Origin: Chloranthus sessilifolius
Taxonomy: Eukaryota > Streptophyta > Magnoliopsida > Chloranthales > Chloranthaceae
Length of the DNA stretch: 64,000 bases
Reading direction: 5' to 3'
Assembly: GCA_021018995.1 (NCBI GenBank)
Contig: CM037597.1
Location: 31,994,936-32,058,935 of the forward strand
Shown here: positions 4,143 through 47,123 of the stretch, piece by piece
Layout of the letters: each line of letters begins with the position of its first letter
Position numbering within the stretch: position 1 is the stretch's first letter
Program-made: the position numbers and the translations under genes
The notes under the pieces: generated by a model
Databases searched by the model: none
Told to the model about the DNA's origin: nothing
Seen by the model: only the letters and a program-made list of their open reading frames with translations

Positions 4143-4253
4143 GCTTGCTTGAGCGAGGACTTATGCTCGCTTGAGCGAGCCATGTGAAAATGAAGCACTA
4201 AAGATCTTCTGGGCTCGCTTGAGCGACGACTTAAAATCGCTCGAGCGAGAACG
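4143..4253 (+). repeat. RT-1 internal cluster of CTCGCTCGAGCGAG-like palindromes
   Basis: Four imperfect copies of a 14-bp palindrome lie in about 110 bp: CTTGCTTGAGCGAG, CTCGCTTGAGCGAG, CTCGCTTGAGCGAC and ATCGCTCGAGCGAG. The same palindrome is clustered in this element's LTR (6836-7078) and nowhere else in the window. The cluster stops two to five bases before a TATA box. Confidence 0.9.
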
Positions 4254-4257
4254 GGAG

Positions 4258-4265
4258 TATATAAG
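4258..4265 (+). promoter_or_regulatory. TATA box for ORF3 of RT-1
   Basis: TATATAAG directly follows the motif cluster and lies about 210 bp before the ORF3 start codon at 4469. Its placement suggests a separate internal promoter for ORF3. Inference from sequence only. Confidence 0.6.
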
Positions 4266-4468
4266 GGGAGGGCGATCACTGTTTCACCCATTTTCTTCAC
4301 GCGAGAAGCGATTTGGGCGTTGGGGTTTAGGGTTTTGGCTTTGAAGCTTCTTGAATGTGCGATTTCAAGTTGGATTTGAAGGATTTGATCCGTTAAAAAT
4401 GCTTCAAAAGGTAAATTGCGCCCTAAATTCACCTTATTTTATTGAGTTGATTTTCTTTTGATACCTTA

Positions 4469-5724
4469 ATGGCTTCTACAAGCCCAAATCCTCAACCCAA
4501 GAAGAGGGTCGTGATTCGATCGCCTCCTTCTCGCAACAAGGTGCCACAGCCACCACAACCACCACCTCCACCGCCACCACTTCAAAAAGAGGCACCGGTC
4601 CTATTGGACGATTGGTGGGGGGACAAAATCTTTGAAACCGAGTGGAAATCCACCCCACTTGCTTTCGGGATCCTACGTCCACTAAATGGACTTCTGATTT
4701 TCTCAAGCAAAACCGCATGTGATCTTTATTGACACCATTTGGGAACTGGTATTATCCACGGCTTGTTAAATTATTTTATCAAACTCTTAAAACCTCTACC
4801 GACGAGGACATTCTCGTCGTTGAAATAGACGAAAGGTCGTTTGAGTTTGGTGAGGCCGACATTTCGCATACCATGAATTGCCCTCACGCCTACACCCGAG
4901 AACCCAATTCACAACTACCTTTTGCCCAAGAAGTACCTATCCAGACAATCATCTCCAACATTACTGGCGGCACCACTGCATCGGGACAATCTATCACTCG
5001 GTCCCAGTTGCCGCCACATATGTGGCCTCTTGACATTTTTTTTTAAAAGAATTTATACCCGACGGGCCACGACCAAGAGCGTCGTGACACATTTTTGAGG
5101 GCGCTGCACTCCGCTTTTCACAACAGGTGGTTTAACACACCTAAGGTGGTTCTCAAGGGCATTATATATGCTCTTAAGCAAAACATGAAGGGTGTTATTC
5201 CACCACCCATCAATCACCTACTGTACGCCCGTCTTATTTCCCGCCTCTTTGACTTGTGCAACGGGAAGGATGACTTCCACATACGAGAGGATGAGCCCGT
5301 CCTCACTAATAACATCGTCCCATTCCTAGGCCAAGACCTAAGTAGAAACTTAAAAAGCCTCCAAAACAGTCTAACCAAGAAGCAGGATCGTCAGGTTGCC
5401 CGGCAAGGGGCACAACCACCATCGATTGGACCGACTGCTCCCTCCGCTTCGTCTCCCCATCCTTTCCCTGCCACCGACAGTAGCATGATGTGGGAGATCC
5501 TCCTACAAGGGCGGGAGATCCGGATACATCAGCGGTTCTAGGAGTCGCTCCTCATCTACCTCATGGGCCATGCGTTTCCATAGACGTACCGAAAGCGCGT
5601 CGGTGCTATGCGAGGTACTATCTTTGGTGCATCTAGCTCGGGTCCGGCTACTAGGGCGACTACAGCTGATGCCACTACCGCCAGGGAGGTTGGTGACGAT
5701 GATGATGAGGAGGGCGACGATTAG
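4469..5724 (+). pseudogene. ORF3 of RT-1 (plant transposon protein / ATHILA ORF-1-like)
   Basis: An extra gene after integrase. It starts MASTSPNPQPKKRVV with a basic, proline-rich N-terminus (PPQPPPPPPP), then the conserved core: WYYPRLVKLFYQ, an ID...F...I...MNCP segment, LPPHMWPLDI, YPTGHDQERRD, RWFNTPKVVLKGII and LLYARLISRLFD. It ends with an acidic tail (DDDDEEGDD) before TAG at 5722-5724. The same blocks occur in order in RT-A (23758-39252), RT-C (45592-46763) and, more weakly, RT-B (32166-34688). Breaks: a frameshift near 4729, a T-run at 5036-5043 followed by TAA, TAG near 5541 and TAG near 5581. Function unknown; a nuclear DNA-binding or anti-silencing role is inference. Confidence 0.8.
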
Positions 5725-6223
5725 GTCATCATCTATTATTTAAATACTTTTTGAAAATAGCAATATAATATTTTTAAGTATTTTGATGTGCATGTCGGGA
5801 TGCGATCCTTTTAAACTGTGGTGACATGGTTGTCACAATTTTGTTATTTGACATGGTGATAGAAATATGCATATAGCTCTTCTTTCATTATGGTTAAAAG
5901 GGTGAAATATTGTGGTCATATAGGAATATGCGGTTGTATATAGTTTTATTATGCAGGTGAGCGGGGATGTGTATAGTCATACACGAATGTGTGGTTGCAT
6001 GTACTTTTATACAGGTACTCATAAATGTGGCTAATCATGTGTGACTACTATTTCCTTTAATGGTTGTTGCATCAATATAAGCTTGATTGCGATCTTTTTG
6101 ACCAAATGCTAAAGTAGATGATTAGACTAAATGGCTAGTCTCGTCGAAGGCCGTGTTACTAGTTGTAGCTAAATCTCTAGTATATTGTCAATTTTCGCGG
6201 ATGAAAATTTTATAAGGTGGGAA
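5725..6223 (+). other. RT-1 3' untranslated spacer and polypurine tract
   Basis: No gene seen. The stretch ends GGATGAAAATTTTATAAGGTGGGAA, parallel to the end of RT-A's spacer (GGACGAAAATTTC, AAGGAGGGGAGAA at 39874-39901); the purine run at about 6214-6223 should prime plus-strand synthesis. Confidence 0.6.
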
Positions 6224-6835
6224 TTAATAACCCAGGTTTTGGGGAACTGTATATGTCCGTTGGGTATTTGTGGTTCACAAGGGAACCACAATTACTATAT
6301 ACACTTTAAATGTATATGTTCAATAGGTGAGCTATGTGAGTGCAAAACCATGTAAGAGTGTATGTGGTTAGCACACTAGTCAAAGCAAGTAGAGAAAGGG
6401 GGGGAAAAGGTCTCCCACACGTTTTGTTCTAGGGCAAATAGAGAAAGTGAGATAGAGAGAAAGAAGAAGGAAGGGTTGGTGAAGAGAAGATATATGCATA
6501 GGAATTCCTTGGATGAGAGGGAGCATTCATCTTTTAGATCTTTAATGCTTGAGATGATGAAGGGATAGGGTTGGGATTGAAGAAGATCTAAAGGTGGTGA
6601 GCTAGTTAAGGATCAAGAGAAAAAGGGTTGGAAGAAGGGTTTTGAAACCCTCATTGGTATGGTGGATCTTGGATCGAATCTAGAAGAGATTCCTTAATCA
6701 AAGGTATGTTTTAATGATTATATGTGCTTTAAATAAAGCATAAATTATTAGTTGGATCATTTTTGACATTAATAGGATATTAAATGAAGTAGGAAGTTAG
6801 TTCTCAAACTGATCGAGCATTAACTGTTATCACTC

Positions 6836-7078
6836 CTCGCTCGAGCAGTTTAAATAGCTCACTCGCGCGAGGAGGATCACAAAATATAAGTATAAACTAT
6901 GTTCTGGGCTCGCTCGAGCGAGACCCCTTTGTGAAGGGAAGGCTCGTGCGAGCGAGGATTCACGTAAGTTACAGATGCCTCATTTTAAAATGCTCGAGCA
7001 GGGATGATACTTGCTTGTAATCGCTCGAGTGATGAATAGTGTTCGCTTGCGCGATGAATAGTATTCGTTCGAGCGAGG
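6836..7078 (+). repeat. RT-1 LTR cluster of CTCGCTCGAGCGAG-like palindromes
   Basis: About eight copies in 245 bp, including one perfect CTCGCTCGAGCGAG near 6908-6921 and variants such as CTCGCTCGAGCAG, CTCACTCGCGCGAG, TCGCTCGAGTGA, TCGCTTGCGCGA and TCGTTCGAGCGAG. Spacing is irregular, so this is a cluster of sites and not a simple tandem array. Confidence 0.9.
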
Positions 7079-8057
7079 TACTACATGCAATTTTAGTTTA
7101 TTTTTAGTGTTCTTGGAAGCTTTGGATTCCGAGAATTTTGGGGGGGACTTTCTAAGAATATTTTGTCACATGTAATGTAGATTTGACATTGTTTGAGGCA
7201 CTTAATTTCCCTAGGGGATAGTGATGCGTCAAGTGATGGTTTCGCATTGAGGTAGGGAACACCTTGAACATGTACTTTAATTTCGAAAGCATGTATATAG
7301 AGTGATTCATATGAACCTTTGTGCATCAAAATATGATTTCAAAGAGTATGGGTGTGTCTATGTGAATGCTAAATGAACTCATAAGGTCCCCAGGGGACGT
7401 GAAATTATGATAATGTGCATCTAAGTGATGCGTTGATCCAGTGGCATCCCAGGGATGCAGATGAAATCTATCGGTGAAGTGAAAGAAAAGTTGCTAAGGC
7501 CTAATATACTAAAATTAGCATAAGTATACGGTGAATAATTATATGTAGTACACATTTGATATTTTTATTATTTGAGGTTTGAACATAATACCCCACCGAC
7601 GTGGCGGGATACCCACGACTGACTCGACAGGAATTCCTTGACTGGTATGGCGGCCAATCCGTACACCAGTTTGGCATCCCAGGGATGTGAGTATGAGTCT
7701 AGAAAACCCCGTCGCCTATGAGAAAAGGACCTGGGTAGTATCCAAGAAAGAAACAGATATGACAACTGTCTATTTAGACAACGATGAAGAGTATTCCATC
7801 GGGCGCCCGACTCTATAGTAAGTTAGGGATTGTTTAAGTTACGATTTAAGTAATTAGGCCGAATTAGTGTCCAATACCAGTAAGTTGAGAATGAACAAAC
7901 ACAAGTAAAGTAACAGTTGCATCAAGTACATCATTTCAGTAGTTTAAAATATTTTCTCAGTAATTCCATTAGATTAACCATGCTTTAAAACTGTTTTAGA
8001 ATATATGTGAGAGCTTAACTTATATGTTCACTTGTTGTTTTCCTATTGATCTAGGAT

Positions 8058-8195
8058 GTAGCTCACCCCTTTAGACTATACGTCACAGGTCCATTGCTTG
8101 TTGTGGTCGAGGCTTTGGTAGATTCGGATTATGTGCTCGGGGAAGAGTTGGAGCCTCCTCTGAGGACTTCTTCTAGAGGACCTGTGCGTACTTGA
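8058..8195 (+). CDS. Small acidic frame inside the RT-1 LTR
   Basis: A 45-codon open stretch reads VAHPFRLYVTG, then DSDYVLGEELEPP, then a stop. The same pattern (LYVTG ... DSDY ... EE.LE.P) occurs at the matching place in the LTRs of RT-A and RT-C. No start codon is clear; it may be the end of a spliced or leader peptide. The role is unknown. Confidence 0.4.
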   Translation, partial: VAHPFRLYVTGPLLVVVEALVDSDYVLGEELEPPLRTSSRGPVRT

Positions 8196-8284
8196 GTGTT
8201 ATTTTAAGAGCATTTCTATACGGCTTGGTATGTCAAGCCTTATTTTTTTGAAATAATATAATTAAATGATATATTCTTTTTGGC

Positions 8285-8320
8285 GAACCATCTGGGGTGA
8301 TCTATTTATCACCGATGGTT
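8285..8320 (+). other. Conserved hairpin near the end of the RT-1 LTR
   Basis: AACCATC pairs with GATGGTT, and inside it GGTGAT pairs with ATCACC around a short loop. A hairpin of the same two-part design lies at the same place in the LTRs of RT-A and RT-C, with compensating base changes. Confidence 0.55.
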
Positions 8321-8542
8321 TGAGTCGGTTCTTTTGTTCATGCGTTGGCATGGAAGAAGAACTGTCTTTTGAGCTTTTGTTTTAGATTAGTCTATCTTAA
8401 TTTTACGTCATTCAGTTTACTTATCTTATTTTGAGTAGTTGTTGCTTGGTTATACCAATGTTCCATATGGACTTCAGGGGCACGGCCTGGAGGGCCGTGC
8501 TGATGGCATGGGTTTCGAGGTGCTAAAATCCAGACTATTACA

Positions 8543-8948: not shown

Positions 8949-9188
8949 TTAATATTGAAAGAAATATTTATAGAGATTAACCAATAACCTGATTACATTT
9001 CTTTTCATATTGAAAGAAATATTGATGTCTTCTTGCTTGAAATCTAGCTGGAGTTCCCTGCTTAAATAATCCACGTATTTCATCATAAAAATCCTGAAGT
9101 CAGTATCATTTTTTTGGATTGGCACATTGTAGATATCCTTACTGTCCCAAGGCCATTTGTCAAAAATGAAAGCCAGACTGCCGTTCAT
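8949..9188 (-). pseudogene. Ulp1-like (C48) protease, C-terminal segment lacking the catalytic Cys
   Basis: Minus-strand text includes FDKWPWDSKDIYNVPIQKN, DTDFRIFMMKYVDYLSR and LQLDFKQEDI. This matches the end of the plant transposon Ulp1 domain, where the usual block is DCG-x-F. Here the Cys-Gly pair is Phe-Arg, so the nucleophile of this SUMO-protease fold is absent. The His and Asp segments lie upstream on the same strand (9423-9650). Plant Ulp1 domains of this kind sit at the C-terminus of DUF1985 proteins carried by DNA transposons, which fits the DUF1985 segment at 12242-12860. Confidence 0.75.
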
Positions 9189-9270
9189 ATGAAGCAGGGC
9201 TGGGACGTAATGCGTCAGTCAATAAAGAAAAAGTAAAAATATCAGTTACACATAAATTTAGAAAATAGAA

Positions 9271-9484
9271 GGGAGCGCTGATGCACTAATATCATAGAGC
9301 TAACGCCCTATTTTGAAAGTGCTGACACACCAATGTCAAAGCGCTAACCCCCTTTTTGGAAGCGTTGACGCCCCATTGTCAAAGCACCGATGTTCCATTT
9401 TGGAAGCGCTGACTTCCCATTATCAAATCACCGACGCCCCATTTTGGAAGCACTGACGCCCCATTATCAAAGCGCTTCCGCTAA
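9271..9484. repeat. Cluster of GGAAGCGCTGACGCCCC-type repeats
   Basis: About ten imperfect copies spaced about 20-22 bp alternate between GGAAGCGCTGACGCCCCATT and the related AAAGCGCTAACGCCCC form. The array lies between two coding segments of the Ulp1 domain, probably in an intron. The core fits GAAGCG-N3-4-CGC(T/C)(T/C)C, found in four other clusters around this gene. Confidence 0.75.
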
Positions 9485-9650
9485 GAGCGATGAGCAATTT
9501 TGGCATTACTTTTGAGAGTATTCTAGCGTAACTTATTAGTGTTCTTATTGCCTCGCCAAATTTGGTTTCTGGAGGACGATCTGGGAGGGGGTCAAGGACA
9601 TTGATTTGATGAGCTGAGGGGGTCGCCATAGCAAACACCCAGTGTCATGA
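9423..9650 (-). pseudogene. Ulp1-like protease, His/Asp segment
   Basis: The minus strand reads HWVFAMATP, then INVLDPLPDRPP, then MPKLL. HW followed 15-20 residues later by LD is the His and Asp part of the C48 triad (HW...V.DS). A TGA sits just before the HW, and the segment overlaps the edge of the motif array, so the exon border is uncertain. Together with 8949-9188 this makes a triad with His and Asp kept and Cys lost. Confidence 0.65.
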
Positions 9651-9689
9651 CTTCTCGATGTGAATCGGAATAAAATTTTTTTCACACTC

Positions 9690-10015
9690 AATCGCATTCA
9701 AGGCGCAATTTTTATTTATGATTAAACACTGCAATGACATCGTGTTCTACTGCACGAAAAAAAATCTGTATAGTATGTCCTCCATCTTGCCATGTTGGGG
9801 GGTGCATGTGGACCACTCTCATTAATGTACTTCTCAAAATCGCTAGAATCCATGCTCATCTAGTTGAATCCAATGACGGCCATCCAGAAAGTCTTCTTCT
9901 TCTTCTCAATGTCTTCCCGCTTGTCCATGACCTAAAGTACGCGGTGATTATCTGCATACCAAAGTATAAATATCAATATAGAATCATGGAAGCAACAAGG
10001 TTAAATAGGGACTAA
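9690..10015 (-). pseudogene. Probable N-terminal Ulp1 exon(s), decayed
   Basis: Minus-strand frames give DKREDIEKKKTFWMAVI and FEKYINESGPHAPPTW, broken by a stop. The position between the proline-rich region and the HW segment fits the start of the Ulp1 domain. I do not recognise enough to fix exon borders. Confidence 0.35.
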
Positions 10016-10406
10016 TACTTACTGGGTCTTTTATTTCCTGTTTGGATTGCAGGCAATGCATCAACTTGACGGTAATACACCGGGGCCCAATGGTTGAGAT
10101 GATAGTCCTACGTTCAAATTAAAACATAAGTTGATGAGTTTCTAGCACTTTGAAGTAGACACATTAATGCCTTCTTTTTGCGCACTTGAGAGACAAGCTC
10201 TACCTTTCTTTTAGAGTGAGTTTGTGAGGGAGGAAGGTGGGGCCTTTAGCTTGGGTCCTCTCACTTCTCCTGAAAGGTAATGGGACTTGGTCCTCCACTT
10301 CTTATACTTTTTATACTGAAAACCTCTCTTCAGTGTATGGCTGCGTAAGGGGCATCTCAAGACCTTCGTCATGAGACACAGTAGGCGGTGGTGGTGGAGG
10401 TAGAGA

Positions 10407-10958
10407 TTATGGTTGGGGTGGGGTTTCTCCTGTGTAGGAGGTTGGATTTTGGACCGTGGTGGTGGTGGTGGAGGCAAAGATTGTGGATGGAGATGGGGTT
10501 TCTCCTTTATAGGAGGTTGGGCTTTGGTCTGTGGTGGTTGTGGTGGAGGCAGGGCTTTCGATTGGGTAAGGGCTTAGATTTTGGTTGGGGCTGGGGCTTG
10601 GTCTGTGGTTGTGGTTGCGATGGGGATGGGGTTGTGGTTGTGGTTGGGGCTTGGGCTTGTCCTTGGGCTTGGGCTTAGGCTTGGGTTGGGGCTTGGGCTT
10701 GTCCTTGGGCTTTGGTTTGGGCTTGGGCTGGGGCTTGGGCTTATACTTGGGCTTGGGCCGTGGTTGTGGTTTTGCGTGGGGTTTGGGCTGTGGGTGGGGT
10801 TGGGGCTGTGATTGTGGCTGTGGGTGGGGTTGGGGATGGGGCTGTGATTGCGGTTGTGGGTGGGGTTCAGGCTGAAGTTCAGGCGGAGGCAGACCTTTGA
10901 CCATGGGGGAAACGTGCCTGATAATCCCCATCGAGGCCCAGCGGACTTCCCGCCACAC
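10407..10958 (-). pseudogene. Proline-rich linker exon of the DUF1985/Ulp1 gene
   Basis: An open minus-strand stretch of 183 codons. It begins near VSPMVKGLPPPELQPEP and runs through about 25 repeats of PQPxPxPK/PKPKPKPKD, then PSPNQNLSPYP and TTTTTDQSPTSYKGETP. It is low-complexity: a hexanucleotide-like array on DNA (GGGCTT on the plus strand). Its place between the coiled coil and the protease fits a flexible linker. Length probably varies between copies. Confidence 0.55.
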
Positions 10959-11039
10959 TGCGGGCTTACAATATGATAAGAATATTAGTTCATGTTTAAA
11001 AAATAGTTAACATGTAGAAGCATTTATGCTTCATACTCG

Positions 11040-11160
11040 AAGAGTCGACACATCATAGAGAAGCGTCGTCGCCTCCTATAGAAGTGTCAACACTAGCTAT
11101 GAAGGTGTCGGCGCTTCATAGTCGAAGCGTCGATGCGTCATAGAGAAGCGTCTGCACTTT
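11040..11160. repeat. Cluster of GAAGCGTCG-N-CGC-TTC motifs
   Basis: Copies include GAAGCGTCGTCGCCTC, GGTGTCGGCGCTTC and GAAGCGTCGATGCGTC, separated by CATAGA or similar. Lies between the coiled-coil and proline-rich exons (minus strand). Confidence 0.75.
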
Positions 11161-11214
11161 GTCATGGGATTTCCTCAAACTCAGCATTTATCTCACATAG
11201 TTTAGAAGCATACC

Positions 11215-11700
11215 TTGGATAGACACGCTTGTTGGTTTCGGAAGAGGGCTAACTGATTCTTAATATTCGCCTGTTCCTTTCAGATAAGGGCATTTTGATC
11301 CTTCAGTTTCTGGTTCTCCTATTCAAGCAGAAGAACCTTTTCCTTCAATTGTCGGTTCTCCTTTTTTAGCTGAAGAACCTTTACAAGGAAGTCGTCGAAG
11401 CCTTTGCTCTACTCTATCATTTACCTCTCACAGTCTGTAATTCTTAAATCGTCAGACTGCTTCCATTGTTCATCAATCCGTTGTTTCACAGATTGATAGG
11501 ATTTTGGTTCTTCTTCTTCTTCTTCTCTCTCTTCTTCTTCCTCTTCTTCTTCTTATTCCTCCTCTACCTCTTCCTCGTTCGAGACGCTAGTAACGTCAAT
11601 ATCCATTTTCTTCCTCCGCACAATAATGGGAGGGACCGGTTGTCCTTCACCCGATTCCACAAGTCTCTCTGCCCTGTTCTCAATATGATTTCTATCATAG
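11215..11700 (-). pseudogene. Acidic and coiled-coil region of the DUF1985/Ulp1 gene
   Basis: Minus-strand reading gives RRKKMDIDVTSVSNEEEV followed by a Glu/Arg run (the TCT repeat at about 11508-11560). Then come QRIDEQWKQSDDLRI and a heptad-patterned stretch, VLQLKKENRQLKEKVLLLE, ENQKLKDQNALI, KEQANIKNQLALF. It ends at CLSK next to a good donor (AAG|GTATGC, about 11211). Leucines at heptad spacing suggest a coiled coil for self-association. At least three stops interrupt it. Confidence 0.55.
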
Positions 11701-11814
11701 GCAGAGACCTTTCGAAGGGTGTCGCTTCTAGTTGCCGGATGAGGATGGCCTAAAAGATGATAGATATTCCATATTATTTTTGACTGATTAAGAATTTAGG
11801 AATACGTGACTGCT

Positions 11815-11985
11815 TCCTTAAGAAGCGATTGCGCTTGTTATAGAGGCGCCATCGCTTCATTTCGTAGCTATTGCGCTCGTGTTAGAGGTGCCTTCGCCTC
11901 ATTTAGAAGCGAATATTATCTTTTAGAGGTGCCATCACTTCATTTTGAAGCGGTTGCGCTTCTACATTATAGCGATAACGCCTAT
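11815..11985. repeat. Cluster of GAAGCG-NNNN-CGCTTC motifs
   Basis: The clearest copies are GAAGCGGTTGCGCTTC (perfect 6-bp arms), GAAGCGATTGCGCTTG and GGCGCCATCGCTTC. Repeats come every 30-40 bp in alternating orientation. Probably an intron of the minus-strand gene. Confidence 0.8.
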
Positions 11986-12241
11986 ATTTGGATGTGATAT
12001 CACCTCGTTTCGAATTTACCTTATACTTGAAGTCCGCAATGTACGGCTTTCTCATTTTGTCGTTTGCTTCCCATTTCAATAACCTTGGGATGTGGACAAT
12101 TCCATCAACCTTGGTTAGGGCACACCTGTCGTTGATCTCGTACGCTCAGATATGAGAAAAATAAAATAAATATTTGATGAATTTCGTAATCGTCACCATT
12201 TTGTAAGAAATAAAACAAGACATTCTGGGAGACGACATTAC

Positions 12242-12860
12242 CTATAGGGCAATAGTGCAGTTGTAAATATTATAGACACGTAGTTTGATTGATTTCTCGG
12301 TTAAATCACTCATCCTCTTCACTTTGTTAACCCATATTAGAAGTTGATTGTATGCATGATGGCCCCATGGATATATATTGAAATTGGGGAGATCATCAAC
12401 GAGGTCGAGGTGGGGGTTCTTCATGGTGTATTTTTTGTTTGGGAAGAGGAAGGTGGGAGGACGAATAATAGATAGAGTTTCAAAAAGTCTTTGTCAACAT
12501 CTCGCTCGAGACTATCAATTGCTTCTTCGATGTGTGCCCTATATACATATTTGAGGCCCCTGAAAAACCTATATCTAATGGTTTGTTCTTCAGGAATCTC
12601 CACCTTCGGACGGTAATCGGCAGGGTCGATCATTCCAACACCAGTTATCAAGGCAAAATCGAGGGCCCGAAATCTAATAATGCCAGACTTGCCAGTGTCA
12701 AAATTTTAAACGTTACCATGATCCAAGAACTTGATGATTGTGCCCAAGAGGGTGTTGATGCTTATCACGCCCTTTGGAGCCATAAAGAATACACCGAAGA
12801 TCGAATCCTTAAGCAAATTTTTTTCCCGCTCAGACGTCGCGTCATAAATGACCCAACACT
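12242..12860 (-). pseudogene. DUF1985-like domain (plant transposon-encoded)
   Basis: Minus strand: GVFFMAPKG near 12800, FALITGVGMIDPADYRP near 12650, RYRFFRGLKYVYRAHIEEA, and after a frameshift near 12423 LDLVDDLPNFNIYPWGHHAY. A hydrophobic ALxTGxxxG segment and a later VDD-L--FN-YPWG block are the DUF1985 signature as I know it. DUF1985 proteins are carried by plant Mutator-like transposons, commonly fused to Ulp1. At least two stops and one frameshift; a pseudogene. Confidence 0.75.
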
Positions 12861-12989
12861 TTCTAATGGGGCACTTTCTGATGGTTTACTTAGCCATTGG
12901 AGTCTTGAGAACCATCTTTAAAATATGTGACACGGAAAAGGAAAAGTTTAGAGAAGAATGTACTAATAATAGAAGAGGCTTTGCTTTCA

Positions 12990-13130
12990 TGTATAGGCAC
13001 AAGCGCCTCAAATGTTGGAGCACCGATGCTCCAAGCGGTGAGGCACCCCGGCTCATATATGAGGCACAAATGCCTCAAATGTTGGAGCACCGATGCTCCA
13101 AGCGGGGAGGCACCCCACCTCACCGCTTCA
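12990..13130. repeat. Duplicated 65-bp unit with GGAGCACCGATGCTCC palindrome
   Basis: Two near-identical units, each with GCCTCAAATGTTGGAGCACC, GATGCTCCAAGCGG and GAGGCACC. GGAGCA-CCGA-TGCTCC has the same arm-spacer-arm build as the GAAGCG motif, with changed arms. It lies upstream of, or in the 5' part of, the DUF1985 gene. Confidence 0.7.
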
Positions 13131-13499
13131 TCTATGGAAGGGATGGTTCTTCTATTTGCCATTTTAAAAATTGGACGGCAATAAAATGGCAGTCACCTTA
13201 TTACTAGATGCAGAAATAGGATTTCGCCGCTTTGATATTTCTTACTGCACTCTGAGAAGATGAAGATTGGGAGGGCGAAGGTGAAAAGTAATTTGTGAAT
13301 TTATAATTCACAAAATTCCAGCCTTAAATATTTTTCTGGAACGGGAATGATGGACATTACACAACACGATGTCAGGTGCTGTATTCCCATCCGCCTCGTC
13401 CCACTCATCATTTAATGTTATGATAATGTTAATAAATGAAATATGTTCGGGCATTGCTTCACACAAAATGGTGCTATGTGTCAAAATTTAGGATGCTTC

Positions 13500-17595: not shown

Positions 17596-17701
17596 TTTTA
17601 GATTGTCTTTTAATTCTTTTGTTTAGAATTTATTAATTGAATATTGGGCCCTAGGCCAATTGTTTTGTCTTTTTGGATATCACTTGAGGAACCATCATTA
17701 G

Positions 17702-17744: not shown

Positions 17745-17896
17745 TTTCTGGTTCTTATTTTTTTTGCTTTGCCTCTGTTTAGACCTATGTTTATGCTGTC
17801 GGCTTCTATTTGAATTATGGCTTATTGAGAAATCAATAAGTTGATGAACCGGACTTTCCTATACCTTAAGGATTGGAAAAGTCGGGTCGTCACAGT

Positions 17897-38276: not shown

Positions 38277-39252
38277 ATGCGCAAAGAGGATGGGAAGAAA
38301 ATTTACATCGCGATTGATGGGCGTGATTACGCCTTCGACCTAGAGGACATTGCTGTGGCAATGCGCTGCCCTACCTCACATTCATCGACTAAGGGTTTGG
38401 ATCCTCCCTTCCCTAAATCTGTCCCAGTCCATGAGGTTATGGCACAAATGACCCATGGTCGTCATGGGTCTGGTAAGGCTATCACCTCTATGTGGATTTT
38501 AGACATGATTTTTAAGGCAACCCTTTACCCATTCGGCCATAAATCTGAGTGCCGAGGTGCCATTCAATAGATTTTATTCGCCGATTTTAAGGAACGTTGG
38601 TTCCGTGCCCCATAAAATTATATTTAAGGGGATTATTAAAGCTAGGGAGAAGATGGGCAAGCAAGTGAAGAAACCGAAGGGCTTCCCATATGCTCGCCTA
38701 ATTTTGGTTATGATTGAAAATTATTGTGCGGGCCCAGCATATGAGATTCCCCCTACTGAGCCACGATCCATGGACGGTCTCAAGCTTTATAACCTCGTCA
38801 GTTGGGGTCAGACCTATAATTGGCTGATTAAAGCTCCCAAGGGTGTGATAGTACCGGATGAGGATGAAGAGGAGGAGGATGCAGAGTACGTAGCACTAGA
38901 GCCTGACGCTCCTGCACCCGACCAGCCCCCATAGACTGACGTACTCACCCTGTTCGAGGTCACTCGCCAGAAGACTGCAGTAAGCCAGCAGATTCAGGAG
39001 CTCACACAGCATACCAGCTCCATGCGTCGGGAGTTGGACGTTCATGGCGGAGCTCTGACATATTTGATGCAGCATGCGTTCCCTACCGACTATGCCACGT
39101 ACATGGCTAATATCCGGGCGTCAGTGCACCACCCTTCGACATCAGGCACAGGTCCTAGCATGCCTATGAATGAGGGTGTTGATGGTTCGGATGATGATGA
39201 TGCTGACGGTGACCCGGTTCAGGCTGGTCTAGCTGCAGCGGGGGAGCTTTAG
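38277..39252 (+). pseudogene. ORF3 of RT-A, 3' part
   Basis: Continues RKEDGKKIYIAIDGRDYAFD, LEDIAVAMRCP, SMWILDMIF, YPFGHKSECRG, a shift or stop near 38568, then IIFKGIIKAREKMGK, FPYARLILVMIENY. Later blocks: LTYLMQHAFPTDYATYM and an acidic DGSDDDDADGDP before LAAAGEL, TAG (39250-39252). Breaks also near 38932. Matches RT-1 and RT-C ORF3 in order, including the YLM-HAFP block. Confidence 0.82.
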
Positions 39253-39902
39253 ATCAGCCTTGTGCTATTATTTTCCCTTTGGTATTTTTTTTTTTGTTGG
39301 GCCTATACTTATTTATTTTTATGCTGCATGGATTATTTAGAACCTAGAGGTTCTATCTCTGTTTTTCTTTTATTTCTCTTTGTTTTGCGCTATGGACGAG
39401 ATTGATTTGTTTTGTTTCGTTTTGTAACCTTTTTAGCTGTGGATCTTGTCGTATCTATATGTGATTACCTCTTTTAGTTGCTTGTCATTCTTGCTTTTGA
39501 TCTGGAGTTATGGACTTCGTTGTGTTGGCATGTGACTTCGATTTTGTTTTTGCTTTTGTGTGGTGGGATCATGAGTCACTGTGAGATTGTTTGCGTTCGC
39601 CTTTGCGTTTTGATTTTCATCCTATTCTTCATGAGTCACTGTGAGATTGTTTCCCGGCATGTGACACTCGGGGTGTCGGCATCCATGTACGGATGCAACC
39701 CACTATGGCCCTTCAGGTGCCACATGTAGTACATCCAGGTTACTACGGATCCCATCCCTTGACTTGCGTGCCCTGTGAGGCCATCGCACTGTGACCCATA
39801 TATTTTCATTAGTTTTTGTTTTGCGTGTGCATTATGTTTTCATTTTCTGCTTTCCGTCGGTTTTACATTTTTGCGGACGAAAATTTCTAAGGAGGGGAGA
39901 AT
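39253..39902 (+). other. RT-A 3' spacer, structured module and polypurine tract
   Basis: No gene. CATGAGTCACTGTGAGATTG occurs twice (about 39570 and 39630). At 39661-39755 the sequence resembles, inverted, 58660-58765 in solo LTR D, with TCCATGTACGGATGCAAC and TACATCCAGGTTACTACG in common; GCATCC/GGATGC can pair. AAGGAGGGGAGA (39889-39900) is the polypurine tract. Confidence 0.65.
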
Positions 39903-42065
39903 CTAATATCTCTGATATTTTGGACCTATTTTCATTTACCTCGATAAGCGTGCCCGAAAAAGTTGCGGGATATTTCTGGGTTTTTGGATAGCTTAGTGTA
40001 TGATGAGATTGGTAACCAAAGGATTTTAGCTTTGGACATGTGAAAGTCATAGTTTTGGTAACATATACATTAAGTTGTATATTTGCGTTTAACACCGAAA
40101 ATTAATGCAAGATAAGAGGATAGGATTGCAAATAAGAAAAATCTTGATATTTTAGGATGGAAATTAGTATTATAAAGAGAGAGGCTTTGAGGGGAAGTTT
40201 CACTTTTCTCTCTCTCTCGTTTGAATCTTGAATTTGTAACCCTTGCCTTTTGTTCTTTGATCTTAGATCATTGGTGATTGTGAATCCCTCTCCCCATCCC
40301 AACCATTAATAAACCTTGTATGTTATTTCTGATCGGTTTAAGCCATTGAAAGAGAAGGATAGGGGAGAGGATAGTTCTGTGTGGGTCAGATCTGTTGCTC
40401 TGGAAGCAAGGTTAGAATGAACTCATTGGAGGCCCAAACCTATTAAACCTTGAAGATTAGTTTCGGTGCTTGAATTTGGTGCAATGGGATTGAAGGACTA
40501 AACTTCAAGAGGTAGGCTTTTAAAACTCTTTGAGTTAAATATTTTTAGCTTTGCATAGAGTAGATTCTTAGTGAATTTTGTAGAGATAAACAACTGTGGT
40601 TGAATGAGCAAACGGGTCTGAAGATCCAATTAATAATAAACATAGACCTGGGAAATTCGAGGGTCGAATTTGGAATTCGACCATTGAATTGATTTGGGTT
40701 TTTCAGCCTGATGCATGTTTTGGAAATTTGAGGGTCGAATTTGAATTCGACCATCAAATTTCAAATTCGACCATCGAATTTGAATTCGAGGGTCGAATTT
40801 TGCCCTGTTTCTGGCCTTTGAATTTTTGTCAGAATTTTTATCGGCGAGCTTTCGGGTTTGGCTTTTGGACCACTATTAACACTTGTAGTGTTAATCCTTG
40901 TAGGATTTAAAATAAAGAGTCCATTGTGAGGACTGCCATGCTTGTTTTTGGATCGCTTTATGTTGAGGTAGGGGAACTTAAAACCTGATTTGCATTCTAT
41001 TATAATTATAGGTTATTTTGTATTAAGCATAAAGTCTGAAATTTTGAATGAGACAGCATGCATAAGAACTTTGAATTATGACACAGATAAGAACTTTGAA
41101 ATCTGAACTTCCGAACTTTGAACTCTGAATCAGAACTCCGAAAATCCGTAAATGTATTATGTATACAAGCTTTGATATATTTAGCATTTGCATTCGATTT
41201 GAGGCACATAAGAACGAAACCCTAGATTCTACCAGCCGTGTTGACTGTATTCTGCGTGTGCAAGTTACCCTTAGTACGTAGGGGCTTGTTTCACTTCCAA
41301 AAAAGTGTTCATGAACGACGATAGTCAGTAGGGTTTCCCATCGATGACTTTTCCGCTCTCATGCTAGTATGTAATTTGAGAGATTATTTTAACTTATAAA
41401 TTTAAGACAAGAAGCATGCCTAATTCAGAAAATTTGAAAACATCAGATACATTGTTTCAGCTTTTAGCTTTTTATTTAGAATTGGAGATTCAGCTTGTAA
41501 TGCATCTTTCAAAAACTATAATTGATTCGATTTCTGTCTTTGAAAACCTTTACTTATAATAAAATGCAAATAGACATGTTTCCTCTATTGGGCTTCGATG
41601 TTAGCTCACCCCGATTATACGTCACAGGTGTTGAGACTAACCTAGGAGCATACGATCTTGATCCGGAGGACTCCGACTATATTCCTGAGGAGGAATTGGA
41701 GATGCCTACTGAGGAGTTCTTCCCCTGATTTTAGATTGTCTTTTGGTACTTTTGTTTAGAATTTATTAATTGAATATTGGGCCTTAGGCCAATTGTTTTG
41801 TCTTTTTAGATATCACTTTAGGAACCATCATTAGGAACCACTATTTTAGGTGTTGGATTGGTCATCACCGGTGGTTCTTCTGGTTCCTCAGGGTGATATA
41901 TTATTTTGATTAAGCTTTTGTTCTTATTTTTTTTTTGTTTTGCCTCTGTTTAGACCTATGTTTATGCTGCCAGCTTCTGTTTGAATTACGGCTTATTGAG
42001 AAATCAATAAGTTGATGAACCGGACTTTCCTATACCTTAAGGATTGGAAAAGTCGGGTAGTCACA
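39903..42065 (+). repeat. 3' LTR of RT-A
   Basis: Starts TCTAATATC (first G changed) and ends GTAGTCACA. Motif cluster 40655-40799, small acidic ORF 41576-41728 (50 codons, DSDYIPEEELE kept) and hairpin 41835-41877, parallel to the 5' LTR. Confidence 0.95.
40655..40799 (+). repeat. RT-A 3' LTR motif cluster
   Basis: Six or so ATTCGA-NNN-TCGAAT copies; one tandem unit and one isolated copy fewer than in the 5' LTR. Confidence 0.9.
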
Positions 42066-42376: not shown

Positions 42377-42517
42377 TGTGACGACCCGACTTTCCCGTAC
42401 TCGAAATACGGAGAAAGCTGGTTTGTCATTGACTCAGTAGAACTACGTAGAGATAAACATATAGTAAAAGAATGATTCTATCTCTATACAGAAACATAAC
42501 CAAAAAGGAACAAAAAA

Positions 42518-42560
42518 GAATCACCGGTGATGGCTGACCATCACCTAAATAATGGTTCCT
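42518..42560 (-). other. Conserved hairpin in the RT-C 3' LTR
   Basis: GGTGATGG-TCAG-CCATCACC gives a perfect 8-bp stem, with a weaker outer stem. The 5' LTR copy (52569-52610) keeps the inner pairing with a G-U. Corresponds to hairpins of RT-A and RT-1. Confidence 0.55.
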
Positions 42561-42704
42561 AATAGTGGATCCCCAAAAAGTATGCACAAGTATGCTAGTG
42601 CTTATCACTTACGAAACATTCAACGTATCGGGCCTGGAGTCCATAATCCAAAAAAATTGAGAATTCAAATTAAACAATACTATACTGAGTTCAAGATCCC
42701 ACAT

Positions 42705-42827
42705 CTATGGGTAAAACTCGTCAGGTGGAGTCTCCGTATCTTCCTCCAGATTATAATCCGAATCGCTCTCAAATCCTTGATCCTGGGTGGTATCTACACC
42801 TGTGACATATAGTCAGGGTGAGCTGAC
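42705..42827 (-). CDS. Small acidic frame in the RT-C 3' LTR
   Basis: 41 codons: VSSP, one stop (TGA for CGA), LYVTGVDTTQDQGF, SDSDYNLEEDTETPP, DEFYP and TAG. The 5' LTR copy (52754-52876) has exactly the same length and the same internal TGA. Very similar to RT-A's small ORF at protein level. Confidence 0.45.
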
Positions 42828-43689
42828 AGTCTAAGCTCAGCAGAAGAAACTCAATCTCAATTATATCTTATCAGGGCAAACATGGTTTCAAAAGATAGAA
42901 TTCAAGCATATGATATTTCAAGCAGATATTCAAAGCGGATTTAATAACTGAATTTCAAAGACTAAGATCAGATGCAATTTCTCGTACAAATATCATTTCA
43001 AATTCTATAAATTGAATTCAAACAAATTGGGTCTCAGACTGTTGCCGATTCTTATTTGTTCTTAACTTGTACATGCAATGCTTCTCCTATCAGTGACTTA
43101 AATCATAACTTAAATAATCTCCCAAGAAATTATAACTTGAGAGCCGGAGATTTTCGATGGGAACCCCTACCTAACCATCGTCGTTCAATAAATACTTTTC
43201 GGAATTGCTATAAGCCCCTGCGTTATGAGGGAAACTTGCACTATTCAAAATCACCGTCAGCACGGTTCGAAGAGTGAGGGGTTCGTTCATATGAACCTTA
43301 AATCAAATACAGAGTCTAACACATAATTCAGTGTGTTTAAATATATAGCTAGATTCGGAGTTCTGAGTTCAGAGTTCAAGTGCAATTCAAATTCAAAGTG
43401 GATTCAAAAGCAATTTCAGAGTTCATGATCAAGTTCATAAGCAAATTCATATTTATCGGATTTCACATCAATCATATCATGTTATTCATGTAAATTAAGA
43501 TAAAAATGCAATTGGTATTGAGGTTTCCCTACTAAAAGTTCGGAGCCGTTCTAACGATTCCAAAATCCCTATTTACGTCTCCCGTTCTTAACCTAGTTCC
43601 TACGAAGATCACATACTACGTATTAATGGCGAAGAACTAGTAAGATTCAAAGTTTTTCAAAAGACACTGAAGCAGCCAATAACAGAGAA

Positions 43690-43931
43690 AATCGATCGAT
43701 TGATTTCCAAAGGCAGGGAAATTTGATCGATCGATTTCCCCAAAACATTCTACACCTCCTTGTTCTATACAATCCAATCGATTGATTTCTAAATCGATCG
43801 ATCAATCGATTCCATCAGAATAAAAAATTTGATCGATCGATTCCCAAAATTGATCGATCGGTTTCTCCAGAAAACATGCATATCTATCCTGTCAAAATCG
43901 ATCGATCGATTCAGGAACCGATCGATCGGTT
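43690..43931 (-). repeat. RT-C 3' LTR cluster of ATCGATCGAT motifs
   Basis: About nine copies of ATCGATCGATTxxTTT-like sequence: AATCGATCGATTGATT, GATCGATCGATTTCC, AATCGATCGATCAATCGATT, TTGATCGATCGGTTT and so on. Missing from the 5' LTR because of a deletion. Confidence 0.9.
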
Positions 43932-44753
43932 TTGATAGACTCTATAGCCCTTTGAGCTTCTTCTTCCTTGGCTTATTTTTCCCCAAATTCATCCGACACA
44001 ACTCAAACTTTACACATCCATCTATCTAAGCTTAGAATAGTTATTTATTACACAATAACACAACATTACTCACCTTTCCTTGGCTGATTATGTGGCTTTC
44101 ACGAAGGGTTGAAGAAGAGGGTTTCAGAGTGAATTCGCGGTTTCTCGCGGAGATCCGAATCAACAAGGCTCAACGTGCAGCTCCAATCCAACCCACACCA
44201 ATCTTCACTTCCTGCACTCGCGTATGACGCACCCACAATGGTTGGTTTACAACAGTTTAAACCCACACTCTCATTCTCTTAGATATAACTGGAGTTCAAC
44301 GGATCCTCACGGTCGGAGCTAACAAGATCGGACTCTCGTAATGCGGGTGTCAAGTTCATCGCGAAGAATGCAAAGTTTGCAGCACAAACTCGTGGTCAAA
44401 TCTCACGAGAGGGTTTCACAAGTGTTTTGAGGGGAGAGAGCTTGATCTTCTCTCTTCTCTCTTCCAAGGCAAAACAAAAGAAAAGAAGGAAAAAATCTAT
44501 ATATTTATTCTATTAATCTTATCCACTTGACTTAAGGTTCTAGTTTGGTGTTAAACAAACACACCGCGGTTCTGCGTATGGGTTTCAATTAATGGCCACA
44601 GTGACACCTAATTCCACTTTTGACAAAAATATATTCTTATAATTTAATTATTCCCAAAATTTAAGATGCCATCATGTGACTTGTTGGACTCGTACACGGA
44701 GTCGGGTACGTTCAGGTTTGGAAAATTTCAAGACGTTACCTTCTCCCCTCCTT

Positions 44754-45591
44754 TAGAAATTTTCGTCCTTGAAAATTCAGCAAGTGTCTTTTGGGTCGAT
44801 AAACAACACTCATCCTAGGCCCAGTCACACGCTCAACGAGCAAAAGGACACCTAAGGAGATCGAAATTCTCTGCCTAAAGAGAACCCAATCCTTTAATTG
44901 AATTAAATTCAATAACATTATTCAATAAAAGATGATTGAGTACACTATAATTTGTAAAGACATCAGGGTTTCAGTAAATCAGTCAACCATGCATTTATTT
45001 AGAAATACCAATACCTTCACAAGGAATAAAACACGTCCACAATCGTTAGAGTGAATTCGCATCTAGATTTAAAATAGAACATGCATTCTCAAAACAATCC
45101 TAGAAGATCCACAACCAAGGTATGCCCAATACTAACATAACTTCCTGGCATTTATCATCCAAAACACCTGCAGCAATCCTAGAATATCGACAACTAAGCA
45201 TGAGGTATCCAAAACTAAGTTAAGAAAGTTTATCCACCACTAATTTAGCCACATCGAAACATGAAACATCCAACACTAAATTATGCACAACTAAGCATCT
45301 AATATTCACCACTAATTATTAATTGTGCACCATAACTTTGCCACACAATACGCCATCAATAATCCAGAACTAAACATCTAAACATAAAGCATTTAACCAA
45401 CGAAGTTATCCACAACTAAAACTAAAACATTCACAATTTTCCATGTTCATCAAGTACACATAACTAATTACAACACTATAAACGCAAAACATAAGTAGAC
45501 CTCCATGGCTCAATAGTTTTCAAAATCAGCTGAAATATTTAGATTCTCAAAAATTACCAAATGTTAACCAATCCCCTCCTTGTTGACCTGC
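44754..45591 (-). other. RT-C 3' spacer
   Basis: No gene. From about 45100 to 45480 it is A/C-rich with recurring CCACAACTAA and related phrases, a loose low-complexity repeat. Confidence 0.6.
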
Positions 45592-46763
45592 CTAGTAGCC
45601 CGATGGTCCAGGTCCATGGTCCGCTGCACCCCTAGCTCTGAAAGTAGATGCGTCGGTAGCATAGTCGAGTGGGTCAGCAACGTAGGTGCGTGCGTCGGTG
45701 ACATATGGTGTATAGGTGGTAGGGTAGTCATGTTGCATCATGTGCATCAGTAAACCCTCTGGAAATCCAATCGGTGATTTGGCTGGTGATTGTTTTCTGC
45801 CATCAGGGCGAATACATCGTCTATTATTGCGGCTGGTGCCCTCTGAGGTGGAGGCATCTGAGCTGGGGCAGACTGCTGAGGTTGAGTTGTAGGTTCCGGT
45901 CGTTCCTGTTCTTGCTTGGCGTGCTCAGGCTCTTCTTGATCTTCTTTTTCTTGAGCACTCTTCTCTAATTGTTTATAACTTTTTCTTCAATCTTTCATCC
46001 TATATCTCTTGACATTATCAATCAGCTTCTCCTCATCCAGTGGTATACTATAGTCTTCTCGGCTGGCCTGATATCTCTTTATCATTCTGGTGATAAGGCA
46101 TGCGTAGGGCATTGTTTTCAAAGGTGTCTTCCTTCCTTGCGACATATTCTCGCGGGCATAATCTATGCCTGCTTTTACCACATCTGGGGCACTGCACCAT
46201 TGTCCTCTAAAGGCCGAAAATAAGGCCTGTTGAATGCTTCACACTCTTTCCGAATTGTGCCTTAAGGGTTATAAATTACACTTGAAGATAACATCTGACA
46301 TCCACATTTTTTCTGGTAATTGGGCTCTCATCACTAACTGCCTGGACCCATGTTCCCCATGAGTCATCTTCTCGGTGGGGCATTTCATCGCCTCGACAAT
46401 GCGATCAACTCTAAATGCATACACTTTATTGTCGATTTTGGTGTATATTTTATCACGGTCTTCGCCCTGGTATATATTTTGATAAAATAATTTGACCATT
46501 TGTGGGTAAAAATACTCGTGGAAGAGTCAGAGCAAAGGTCCTAACCCGGCCTTTTCTAGGTACTTGAATGCCCATGCGGTCGTCTCTTGGTTTTCAAAGA
46601 GCTCGTGGTCAAAGGACCATTCGACCTCAAATTCCTTGGCTCCCCACCACGCATTTGGTTGTTCTCGTGGTGGCGGCGGTGGGGGCTACCTCAAAGAACC
46701 GGCCTAAGATGCGAGCCTCTTCGATGTGGGATTCTTAACGGAGGGTTTCGCCTTGGATGTCAT
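45592..46763 (-). pseudogene. ORF3 of RT-C (plant transposon protein-like)
   Basis: Starts at ATG 46761-46763 with MTSKAKPSVKNPTSKRLAS, sharing PTSKRLAS with RT-A. Core: MVKLFYQNIYQGEDRDKIYT, FRVDRIVEAMKCP, MTHGEHGSRQL, LPEKMWMSDVIF, then AGIDYARENM and MPYACLITRMIKRY. C-terminus: LLMHMMQHDYPTTYTPYV and GPGPSGY, TAG at 45592-45594. Two stops near 46700 and shifts near 46260, 45980 and 45770 break it. A Glu/Gln/Pro-rich stretch precedes the end. Confidence 0.8.
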
Positions 46764-47000
46764 TGTATTTCAAGGGAAACTCACAAAACCTAGGGCTTTA
46801 AACTTGAAATTAAACAAATCAAATTCAAAGGAAGGTAGGGTTTACCTTTCTAGAGAGTTAGAATCTGATTCTTGCAGAAGAATCGAAGCTTTTGTGAGTC
46901 GGGAATGAAGCACGACAAGTTCACACGAGAAAAGGGAGAAAAAAGTCCTAAAAATGCTTAAGTGAGTCGTGCAAATGAGAAAAATAAACCCACGACCCAT

Positions 47001-47007
47001 TCTTATA
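47001..47007 (-). promoter_or_regulatory. TATA-like box for ORF3 of RT-C
   Basis: TATAAGA on the minus strand, about 10 bp after the motif cluster and about 240 bp before the ORF3 start. Same order and similar spacing as in RT-1. Confidence 0.5.
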
Positions 47008-47016
47008 CTGATAGAG

Positions 47017-47123
47017 TCGATCGATTGATTTCCAAATCGATCGATCAGTTTTTTCTGGACACACAGCAGCTCTTCAAAATCGATAGATCAATTTTCCCAA
47101 GGGGAAAATTTCGATCGATCAGT
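47017..47123 (-). repeat. RT-C internal cluster of ATCGATCGAT motifs
   Basis: Four or five copies: GTCGATCGATTGATT, AATCGATCGATCAGTT, AATCGATAGATCAATTTT, TTCGATCGATCAGTTTC. The same motif as in the 3' LTR, between pol and ORF3. Confidence 0.9.

Follow-up and report, generated by a model that had tools for sequence, protein, structure and literature searches.

In a 64,000-nucleotide stretch of Chloranthus sessilifolius DNA (assembly GCA_021018995.1, contig CM037597.1, positions 31,994,936 to 32,058,935; hereafter the window), four long terminal repeat (LTR) retrotransposons, RT-1, RT-A, RT-B and RT-C, carry an extra gene, ORF3, downstream of pol. Each has a palindromic motif (dyad) of its own, which is clustered in the LTR and again in the spacer just upstream of ORF3. 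We propose that ORF3 is a family-specific DNA-binding protein that activates its own family or counters its silencing, or that serves some other self-regulatory role; we give this reading slightly less than an even chance.

Under this proposal, ORF3 would be expressed from what appears to be its own TATA promoter and would be a nuclear, sequence-specific DNA-binding protein. It would most likely act as a dimer that recognizes the family's own array of CG dyads, both in the LTR and at the ORF3 promoter. Binding would activate the LTR transcript and ORF3 itself, or shield both from silencing, and the outcome would be a VANC-like positive feedback loop that is private to the family. Joint change of protein and site would give each family a private switch. 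Judging from the sequence, binding of ORF3 to its own family's arrays seems somewhat more probable than not; given binding, activation or anti-silencing would be a likely outcome, and we infer that ORF3 may remove methylation.

Dyad arrays in the LTR and ahead of ORF3

An earlier note on this DNA had placed four motifs in the LTRs and pre-ORF3 spacers, and both motif mapping and four further tests agree with those places. The clusters are listed below; the ends of their spans take in weak sites (with as many as 4 mismatches in RT-1 and as many as 3 in RT-A, RT-B and RT-C).

4144..4249, + strand: RT-1 pre-ORF3 cluster, 4 dyads close to CTCGCTCGAGCGAG that form two pairs 22 bp apart
6836..7077, + strand: RT-1 LTR cluster, 7 dyads of CTCGCTCGAGCGAG (one with 4 mismatches), TRF unit 22 bp
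16487..16665, + strand: RT-A 5' LTR cluster, 8 dyads ATTCGA-N3-TCGAAT, unit 19-20 bp
23306..23472, + strand: RT-A pre-ORF3 cluster, 6 dyads ATTCGA-N3-TCGAAT, unit 19-20 bp
40655..40798, + strand: RT-A 3' LTR cluster, 6 dyads ATTCGA-N3-TCGAAT
24353..24594, + strand: RT-B 5' LTR cluster, CTTTTCG(C/A)AAAG
31542..31841, + strand: RT-B pre-ORF3 cluster, CTTTTCG(C/A)AAAG, 9 sites including weak ones, TRF unit 31 bp
36714..36929, + strand: RT-B 3' LTR cluster, CTTTTCG(C/A)AAAG
43690..43927, - strand: RT-C 3' LTR cluster, ATCGATCGAT dyads, at a place corresponding to the RT-A cluster
47015..47120, - strand: RT-C pre-ORF3 cluster, ATCGATCGAT, 4 sites

The earlier note had also described clustering at two places in every element. 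This holds for RT-1, RT-A and RT-B, but in RT-C the LTR cluster is present in the 3' LTR only. The roughly 570 bp that are absent from the RT-C 5' LTR comprise the whole motif cluster and a splice-donor-like site of the 3' LTR; the latter is a good 5' splice site, AAAG/GTGAGTAA, at 44073, ahead of the array. Between its ORF3 and its 3' LTR, RT-C carries a further, distinct array, built of ATGCACAACTAA-like units (45107-45408; 9 sites versus 3 in shuffles).

The match between LTR and spacer was compared with chance by a blind train-and-test design: the top 12-mer was learned from each LTR and then counted in all four pre-ORF3 spacers. The numbers of matches in the spacers of RT-1, RT-A, RT-B and RT-C, in that order, were as follows.

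RT-1 LTR: 4/0/0/0
RT-A LTRs: 0/4/0/0 and 0/5/0/0
RT-B LTRs: 0/0/4/0 and (3' LTR) 1/0/6/0
RT-C 3' LTR: 0/0/0/3
RT-C 5' LTR (array lost): 1/0/0/0

The 12-mer was found again in the spacer of its own element for 6 of the 7 LTRs, the exception being the array-less RT-C 5' LTR. Those six LTRs gave one match in another element's spacer (the RT-B 3' LTR motif in the RT-1 spacer, with 0.43 expected) and the seventh LTR gave one as well. Shuffle means for these spacer matches were 0-0.63. In the four gag-pol stretches (3.3-5.1 kb each), the blind 12-mers had 0-4 matches, with the most for the RT-B 3' LTR motif (3, 4, 4 and 1), and the consensus motifs had 0-1 matches per gag-pol, ORF3 or post-ORF3 stretch. 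This design replaced counts of 8-mers shared between LTR and spacer, which we dropped as too noisy: own-spacer z scores were 6.1-6.6 for RT-A, 2.1 for the RT-C 3' LTR, 0.7 for the RT-C 5' LTR, 1.3 for RT-1 and -0.1 to 0.5 for RT-B, with 2.4 for one other LTR-spacer pair and up to 3.4 for coding controls.

Two scans of the whole window also recovered arrays. Clusters of exact 8-mers (at least 4 recurrences within 300 bp) comprised one LTR array in each family (4/4) and 7 other places, namely low-complexity coding sequence (10517), a satellite (59900), the VANC-like gene described below (13015), the RT-A spacer (23195) and small clusters (681, 15142 and 56563); none arose in 10 dinucleotide-shuffled windows. 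A blind detector of dyad arrays, set to 3 or more similar CpG dyads within 350 bp, found 7 arrays in the 64 kb, all of them in RT-1, RT-A, RT-C or the VANC-type gene. Without the demand for CpG it found 8, the eighth being a 22-bp satellite, and in 10 shuffles it found 0 either way. This detector fails on RT-B, which has an imperfect dyad, and on the RT-C spacer.

In three of the four elements, a TATA-like box begins shortly after the last pre-ORF3 motif:

4258..4266, + strand: RT-1 TATA-like box TATATAAGG, starting 8 bp past the motif
31851..31860, + strand: RT-B TATA-like box TATATTTAAA, starting 9 bp past the motif
47000..47007, - strand: RT-C TATA-like box TATAAGAA, starting 7 bp past the motif

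This distance of 7-9 bp supports an internal promoter for ORF3. The LTRs have TATA-like sites on the upstream side of the array (RT-1 6296, RT-A 3' LTR 40171 and RT-C 44498) as well as on the downstream side (RT-1 7294, RT-A 5' LTR 17025 and RT-C 43342; in RT-B downstream only, at 24939). The LTR array, which the earlier note had put in the promoter region, could therefore be ahead of the transcription start or in the transcribed leader; either fits.

The spacing of 19-22 bp beats random placement in RT-1 (P 0.03 and 0.01), RT-A (0.0003-0.001) and the RT-B 5' LTR (0.03). We rejected helical phasing as a general rule because the spacing is irregular in the RT-B spacer, the RT-B 3' LTR, RT-C and the upstream array of the VANC-like gene (P 0.18). 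As for sequence decay, 9 of the 12 departures from the RT-A consensus (19 sites) change CG to TG or CA, compared with 8/22 in RT-1 (11 sites) and 2/16 in RT-C (12 sites). In RT-A at least, this CpG decay fits sites that would once have been uniform and were later methylated.

ORF3 proteins and the motif difference between RT-A and RT-C

The ORF3 genes are as follows.

4469..5724, + strand: RT-1 ORF3, broken by stops and a frameshift
23756..24099, + strand: RT-A ORF3, first part, interrupted by the RT-B insertion
38277..39252, + strand: RT-A ORF3, second part, with stops and a frameshift
32166..34687, + strand: RT-B ORF3, broken
45590..46763, - strand: RT-C ORF3, broken

The four families had been described as unrelated-looking, and this did not hold up: by sequence comparison their ORF3 proteins are homologous, and the LTRs of RT-A and RT-C are also related in part. 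RT-1 ORF3 matches RT-C ORF3 (BLASTP E 3e-33) and RT-B ORF3 (E 1e-14 over 139 columns), and the two RT-A pieces are 40% and 36.5% identical to RT-C and 44% and 34% identical to RT-1. At E 1e-4, neither the RT-A nor the RT-C pieces matched RT-B, whose membership in the ORF3 family therefore rests on RT-1. ORF3 is less conserved than gag-pol: 36-40% versus 57% for RT-A and RT-C, 34-44% versus 52% for RT-1 and RT-A, and 30% versus 50% for RT-1 and RT-C. (Gag-pol identity is 50-57% among these three elements and 28-30% to RT-B; RT-1 was compared without gag.)

The Pfam family PF20167 (Transposase_32) matched RT-1 ORF3 with 24.6 bits (E 2.6e-5) and RT-C ORF3 with 14.1 bits (E 0.043), both under the gathering score of 45 bits. 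The RT-A and RT-B pieces had no match to PF20167, and other families gave only weak, chance-level matches. The N-termini of the ORF3 proteins are basic, with a net charge of +6 to +8 over the first 30 residues. The C-terminal 30 residues are acidic (-7 to -9) in 3 of 4 (RT-1, RT-A and RT-B), and RT-C has -2 ahead of its frameshift. No hydrophobic segment of transmembrane strength was found in the 9 ORF3 pieces tested, which cover all but the RT-B middle and the RT-C end (maximum 19-residue hydropathy 1.19).

The strongest evidence for one recognizing factor per family is what looks from the sequence like a concerted switch between RT-A and RT-C. BLASTN aligns their LTRs in three blocks with 72-80% identity, each of which lies in the second half, and the distance from the end of the array to the first shared block is 319 bp in RT-A and 311 bp in RT-C. 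In a forced whole-length alignment of the LTRs, columns 855-1100 or so hold both arrays. The dyads at this matching position are not the same (ATTCGA-N3-TCGAAT in RT-A versus ATCGATCGAT in RT-C), and the spacer motifs have switched to match. Spacers of different families had no BLASTN similarity at E 0.01. We rejected homology of the RT-A and RT-C LTRs from end to end: BLASTN supports the second halves only, and the full-length alignment is forced.

Surrounding elements and a VANC/KIU-like gene

The window looks like plant-type DNA built from nested Ty3/gypsy elements, an assignment based on matches to a Tf2-type integrase SH3 domain and to the chromodomain.

6226..8534, + strand: RT-1 3' LTR, read from the sequence, ends approximate; the element is truncated at the window start, with its 5' LTR beyond it
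15734..17894, + strand: RT-A 5' LTR
39902..42065, + strand: RT-A 3' LTR
15729-15733 and 42066-42070: RT-A target duplication, AGATC
24100..25904, + strand: RT-B (Athila-like) 5' LTR
36461..38273, + strand: RT-B 3' LTR
42377..44740, - strand: RT-C 3' LTR
52428..54203, - strand: RT-C 5' LTR, shorter by about 570 bp than the 3' LTR
42372-42376 and 54204-54208: RT-C target duplication, GTGGG

RT-B (24100-38273) is nested within RT-A ORF3, whose frame restarts at 38277. A chromodomain follows the integrase in RT-C (E 1.6e-8, above the cut-off) and in RT-A (E 1.9e-5, just below it) and was not found in the RT-1 integrase piece. RT-1, RT-A and RT-C may be chromoviruses of the Tekay/Del type, and RT-B is presumably Athila-like by its features.

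Next to the retrotransposons lies a gene that served as an internal comparison:

8950..13200, with upstream sequence to 13600, - strand: VANC/KIU-like gene, broken

With its pieces joined by X, the product matched DUF1985 at E 4.7e-7 (below the cut-off) and the Ulp1/C48 peptidase family at E 4.9e-9 (above the cut-off); single pieces gave E 0.0012 for DUF1985 and E 2.7e-4 and 6.5e-4 for Ulp1. Ulp1-bearing VANC genes (KIU) of VANDAL elements have this DUF1985 plus Ulp1 make-up and recognize motifs of their own kind (PMC13317346).

The VANC-like gene has dyads of the GAAGCG-N4-CGCTTC type every 21-22 bp. Allowing up to 4 mismatches in 12, there are 43 sites in 5.5 kb, versus a shuffle mean of 10.9 (maximum 18), and 90 in the remaining window. 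By the exon limits that we read, 35 of the 43 are in introns and upstream sequence, 5 in exons and 3 downstream; 8 of the 35 (12972-13137) lie in an open-frame stretch that is possibly coding. The spacing is regular in three introns (0 of 4000 random placements did as well). This spacing test used loose sites (5 mismatches of 12), so that the regularity leans on the independently found TRF units of 21, 22, 42 and 44 bp. The arrays of the VANC-type gene and of the LTR elements are alike in style, with CG dyads in short tandem units at noncoding places.

Apparently outside the elements described, a 22-bp tandem repeat occupies 59895-60451 (a satellite with about 25 copies by TRF). By eye, 62900-64000 resembles the endonuclease region of a long interspersed nuclear element (LINE).

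Alternative explanations and known systems

Searches for relatives gave none at the thresholds used in a collection of 5.8 billion proteins, and none in scans of IMG/VR. A scan of bacterial and archaeal assemblies gave 37 contigs encoding a gypsy-type pol, which are probably eukaryotic contaminants, and no ORF3 match was found in them (tblastn, E 1e-3). L001, L003 and L004/L005 formed our ORF3-less comparison set. L001 consists of the end of pol, an LTR and then gag, without an ORF3 match. Its LTR has no array of at least 3 dyads. In L003, a 63-bp repeat contains an AT-rich dyad, and CG dyads are absent. ATGCAT-rich repeats number 11 sites in L005 (5 in shuffles) and 7 in L004 (6-7 in shuffles), with no dyad array in either. 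CG dyad pairs like the one in the L001 LTR (see below) are not rare across the 37 contigs (209.6 kb): 7 contigs had 8 such pairs, and L034 had an array with 5 members. This array (4521-4709, in a contig filed as Trichormus) consists of five similar CG dyads of the form TCGATGC-N3-GCATCGA, with spacings of 31, 50, 31 and 50, and is flanked by two large divergent ORFs.

Sireviruses, which are Ty1/copia elements, offer a second comparison. Bousios et al. (2010, PMC2829016) describe LTR palindromes in 13 Sireviruses, of which 12 are variants of a CGG-CCG core, and report that the repeated motif is absent from classic retrotransposons. All 9 of the ENV-bearing Sireviruses with repeated motifs have extra copies in the linker, and 77 of these 79 copies are upstream of ENV; these authors deemed an internal ENV promoter possible and compared the motifs with CpG islands and with the sites of host factors (PMC2829016). 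By the earlier note, motif clusters that were equally present in ORF3-less relatives would refute its idea, and this applies in part. In such relatives repeated motifs do occur in the LTR (in 4/4 ENV-less Sireviruses, and as a pair in L001), and the array in the spacer or linker does not.

The earlier note's central idea was that ORF3 is a family-specific, possibly anti-silencing DNA-binder. It is partly supported, by the presence of one motif per family at the same two places, the homologous ORF3s with their lower conservation than gag-pol, the RT-A/RT-C switch, the basic N-termini and (in 3/4) acidic C-termini, the lack of a transmembrane segment in the pieces tested, and a VANC-type gene with the same array style; a sequence link between ORF3 and VANC was not found.

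Its main rival is that host transcription factors use the arrays as enhancers, with each family having captured a different factor to serve its LTR as well as its ORF3 promoter, and that ORF3 does something else. Repeated palindromic motifs are indeed frequent in the activator boxes of retrotransposons, and relatives that lack the extra gene still have motif repeats in the LTR. For the Sirevirus motifs, Bousios et al. retrieved mostly sites of stress factors, and the Sirevirus core is common to distant hosts, but they found no single common factor in the text covered (PMC2829016). Capture would require four factors, each at two sites, and at a corresponding LTR position the RT-A and RT-C motifs differ, with the spacers differing to match; furthermore, the adjoining VANC-type gene, which is encoded by a transposable element, has the same array style. 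Overall, we consider host factors unlikely. We find it more improbable that the arrays are functionless, slippage-prone tandem repeats that recombination or aberrant strand transfer has carried between LTR and spacer. This would fit the tandem units that TRF finds in RT-1, RT-A, RT-B and the VANC-like gene, as well as the BLASTN matches between spacer and LTR arrays of up to 101 bp (RT-A) and 109 bp (RT-C). Yet the RT-B spacer and LTR have no BLASTN match at E 0.01 and those of RT-1 match over only 23-35 bp, even though the motif is common to both places, and slippage accounts neither for the dyad symmetry nor for the fact that in three elements the arrays stop 7-9 bp short of a TATA-like box.

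Two other ideas seem very improbable. If the palindromes acted in RNA, as hairpins or as dimerization sites of the genomic RNA, then they could pair, and full-length RNA would contain both places; judged from the motifs alone, however, those of RT-B and RT-C cannot form a stable hairpin of their own (a 2-base loop, or a 3-bp stem with a 4-base loop), and their placement by a TATA-like box and in noncoding DNA of the VANC-like gene points to DNA. Alternatively, the arrays might only regulate the expression of ORF3 as an envelope-like or movement protein, given that env-like is a frequent label for the sense ORFs that follow pol in Athila and similar elements. The 9 pieces tested lack a transmembrane segment, the N-termini are basic and there is weak similarity to Transposase_32; in addition, an Athila ORF of sunflower that partly resembles Transposase_32 has a predicted nuclear signal (PMC11728184).

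Several observations weigh against ORF3 as a regulator of its own family. The sample is four elements, two of which have related LTRs, and every ORF3 in the window is broken. The RT-A spacer has no clear TATA box. The spacing is not regular in the RT-B spacer (P 0.21), the RT-B 3' LTR (0.39) or the RT-C arrays (0.61 and 0.31). The array region of RT-A and RT-C is itself not alignable by BLASTN. Profile comparison of ORF3 with the DUF1985 piece gave a probability of 0.1%, so no sequence relation was detected. The L001 LTR has two CG dyads ATCCACGGCCGTGGAA that are 31 bp apart (2282-2328), 812 bp from the LTR start and thus near the place of the RT-A and RT-C arrays. All 4 of the ENV-less Sireviruses keep their LTR motifs and have no linker copies (PMC2829016); it is the LTR part of this that counts against ORF3, whereas the linker pattern (extra copies in all 9 ENV-bearing elements and in none of the 4 ENV-less ones) speaks for it. 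Finally, some Sirevirus motifs are nearly identical between monocot and eudicot elements (PMC2829016), and a conserved host factor would fit this better than private co-evolution.

A wider form of the idea can be offered only tentatively: many plant elements, both Ty1/copia and Ty3/gypsy, may carry a private self-recognition system, in which a fast-evolving DNA-binding protein ("env-like" or ORF3), together with matching dyad arrays at its promoter and in the LTR, counters the silencing of its own family only. Such systems would have evolved in parallel with VANC and might be used in trans by relatives without the gene. The Osr8 motif CGGTCAGACCG (no ENV) is the reverse complement of the Osr10 motif CGGTCTGACCG (ENV), and the OPIE-2 and PREM-2 motif CACCGGACTGTCCGGTG (no ENV) contains that of HOPIE (ENV), CGGACCGTCCG, except for one middle base (PMC2829016, Table 3). 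In the part of the article covered, 3 of 4 ENV-less Sireviruses have a motif core in common with an ENV-bearing element (Osr8 with Osr10, and OPIE-2 and PREM-2 with HOPIE). We assume that Osr8 and Osr10 share a host (rice), as do OPIE-2, PREM-2 and HOPIE (maize). Use in trans would be expected to produce such a common core, but both the wider form and use in trans are weakened by the occurrence of the Sirevirus core in distant hosts. The idea is directly testable because both the protein and its visible family-specific target arrays are at hand. If it is true, then plant genomes hold many natural, sequence-specific tools for opening chromatin, and evasion of silencing by self-recognition is a general strategy and not the speciality of a few DNA transposons.

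Among known systems, VANC of the Arabidopsis VANDAL transposons is alike in that an element-encoded, fast-evolving protein is paired with family-specific tandem motif arrays in noncoding parts, also near its own gene (PMC5735166, PMC10398659). Family-specific arrays in noncoding parts are likewise present in the window elements. In the portions of the VANC/VANDAL literature covered, the target motifs are tandem repeats in introns and upstream regions, and VANC is more variable than the VANA transposase; unpublished structures of VANC with DNA suggest co-evolution (2026 meeting report, PMC12859917). In contrast to the window elements, which have LTRs and gag-pol, VANDALs are Mutator-like DNA transposons. 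VANC belongs to the DUF1985/DUF287 proteins and shows no detectable relation to ORF3, and its motifs (YAGTATTAY and AGTTGTCC/AGTTGTAC) are not perfect dyads. Anti-silencing by VANC is proven in Arabidopsis, whereas for ORF3 we infer it. Spm TnpA and MuDR MURA are also element-encoded proteins linked to lower methylation of their own element, but they are carried by DNA transposons (PMC10398659).

Among retrotransposons, the antisense ORF of Retand TRP28 (PMC11963269) is similar in lying between pol and the 3' LTR, in its predicted DNA binding and in the family-specific tandem repeats there, for which a regulatory role was proposed. It differs by being antisense and by its Transposase_28 domain, and the text covered does not mention a matching LTR motif cluster. 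The sunflower Athila ORF(+) (PMC11728184) resembles ORF3 in its partial Transposase_32 similarity and has the predicted nuclear signal noted above. In contrast, the sunflower Tekay ORFs lie 5' of gag-pol and have no known domain, and motif arrays are not mentioned in the text covered (PMC11728184); a sunflower paper cites VANC when discussing a Tekay ORF of another type (PMC12844716). Among the matches listed from the open-licence literature, there was no LTR-retrotransposon anti-silencer of this kind, nor any Ty3/gypsy case of the layout, the concerted switch or the link to VANC.

The closest precedent for the layout is the Sireviruses, which likewise have CG palindromes in the LTR and just upstream of an extra 3' gene, with linker copies only where that gene is present. 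They differ in being Ty1/copia elements with a CGG-CCG core in 12 of the 13 motifs. The window elements are Ty3/gypsy (chromodomain type and Athila-like) and lack CGG-CCG: their cores are TCGA-type or other and differ between families, even between partly homologous LTRs, and their ORF3 is distantly Transposase_32-like. Thus, the layout is already known from Sireviruses, and the window adds its occurrence in Ty3/gypsy elements, the tie to homologous ORF3s, outright motif differences between families and the VANC reading.

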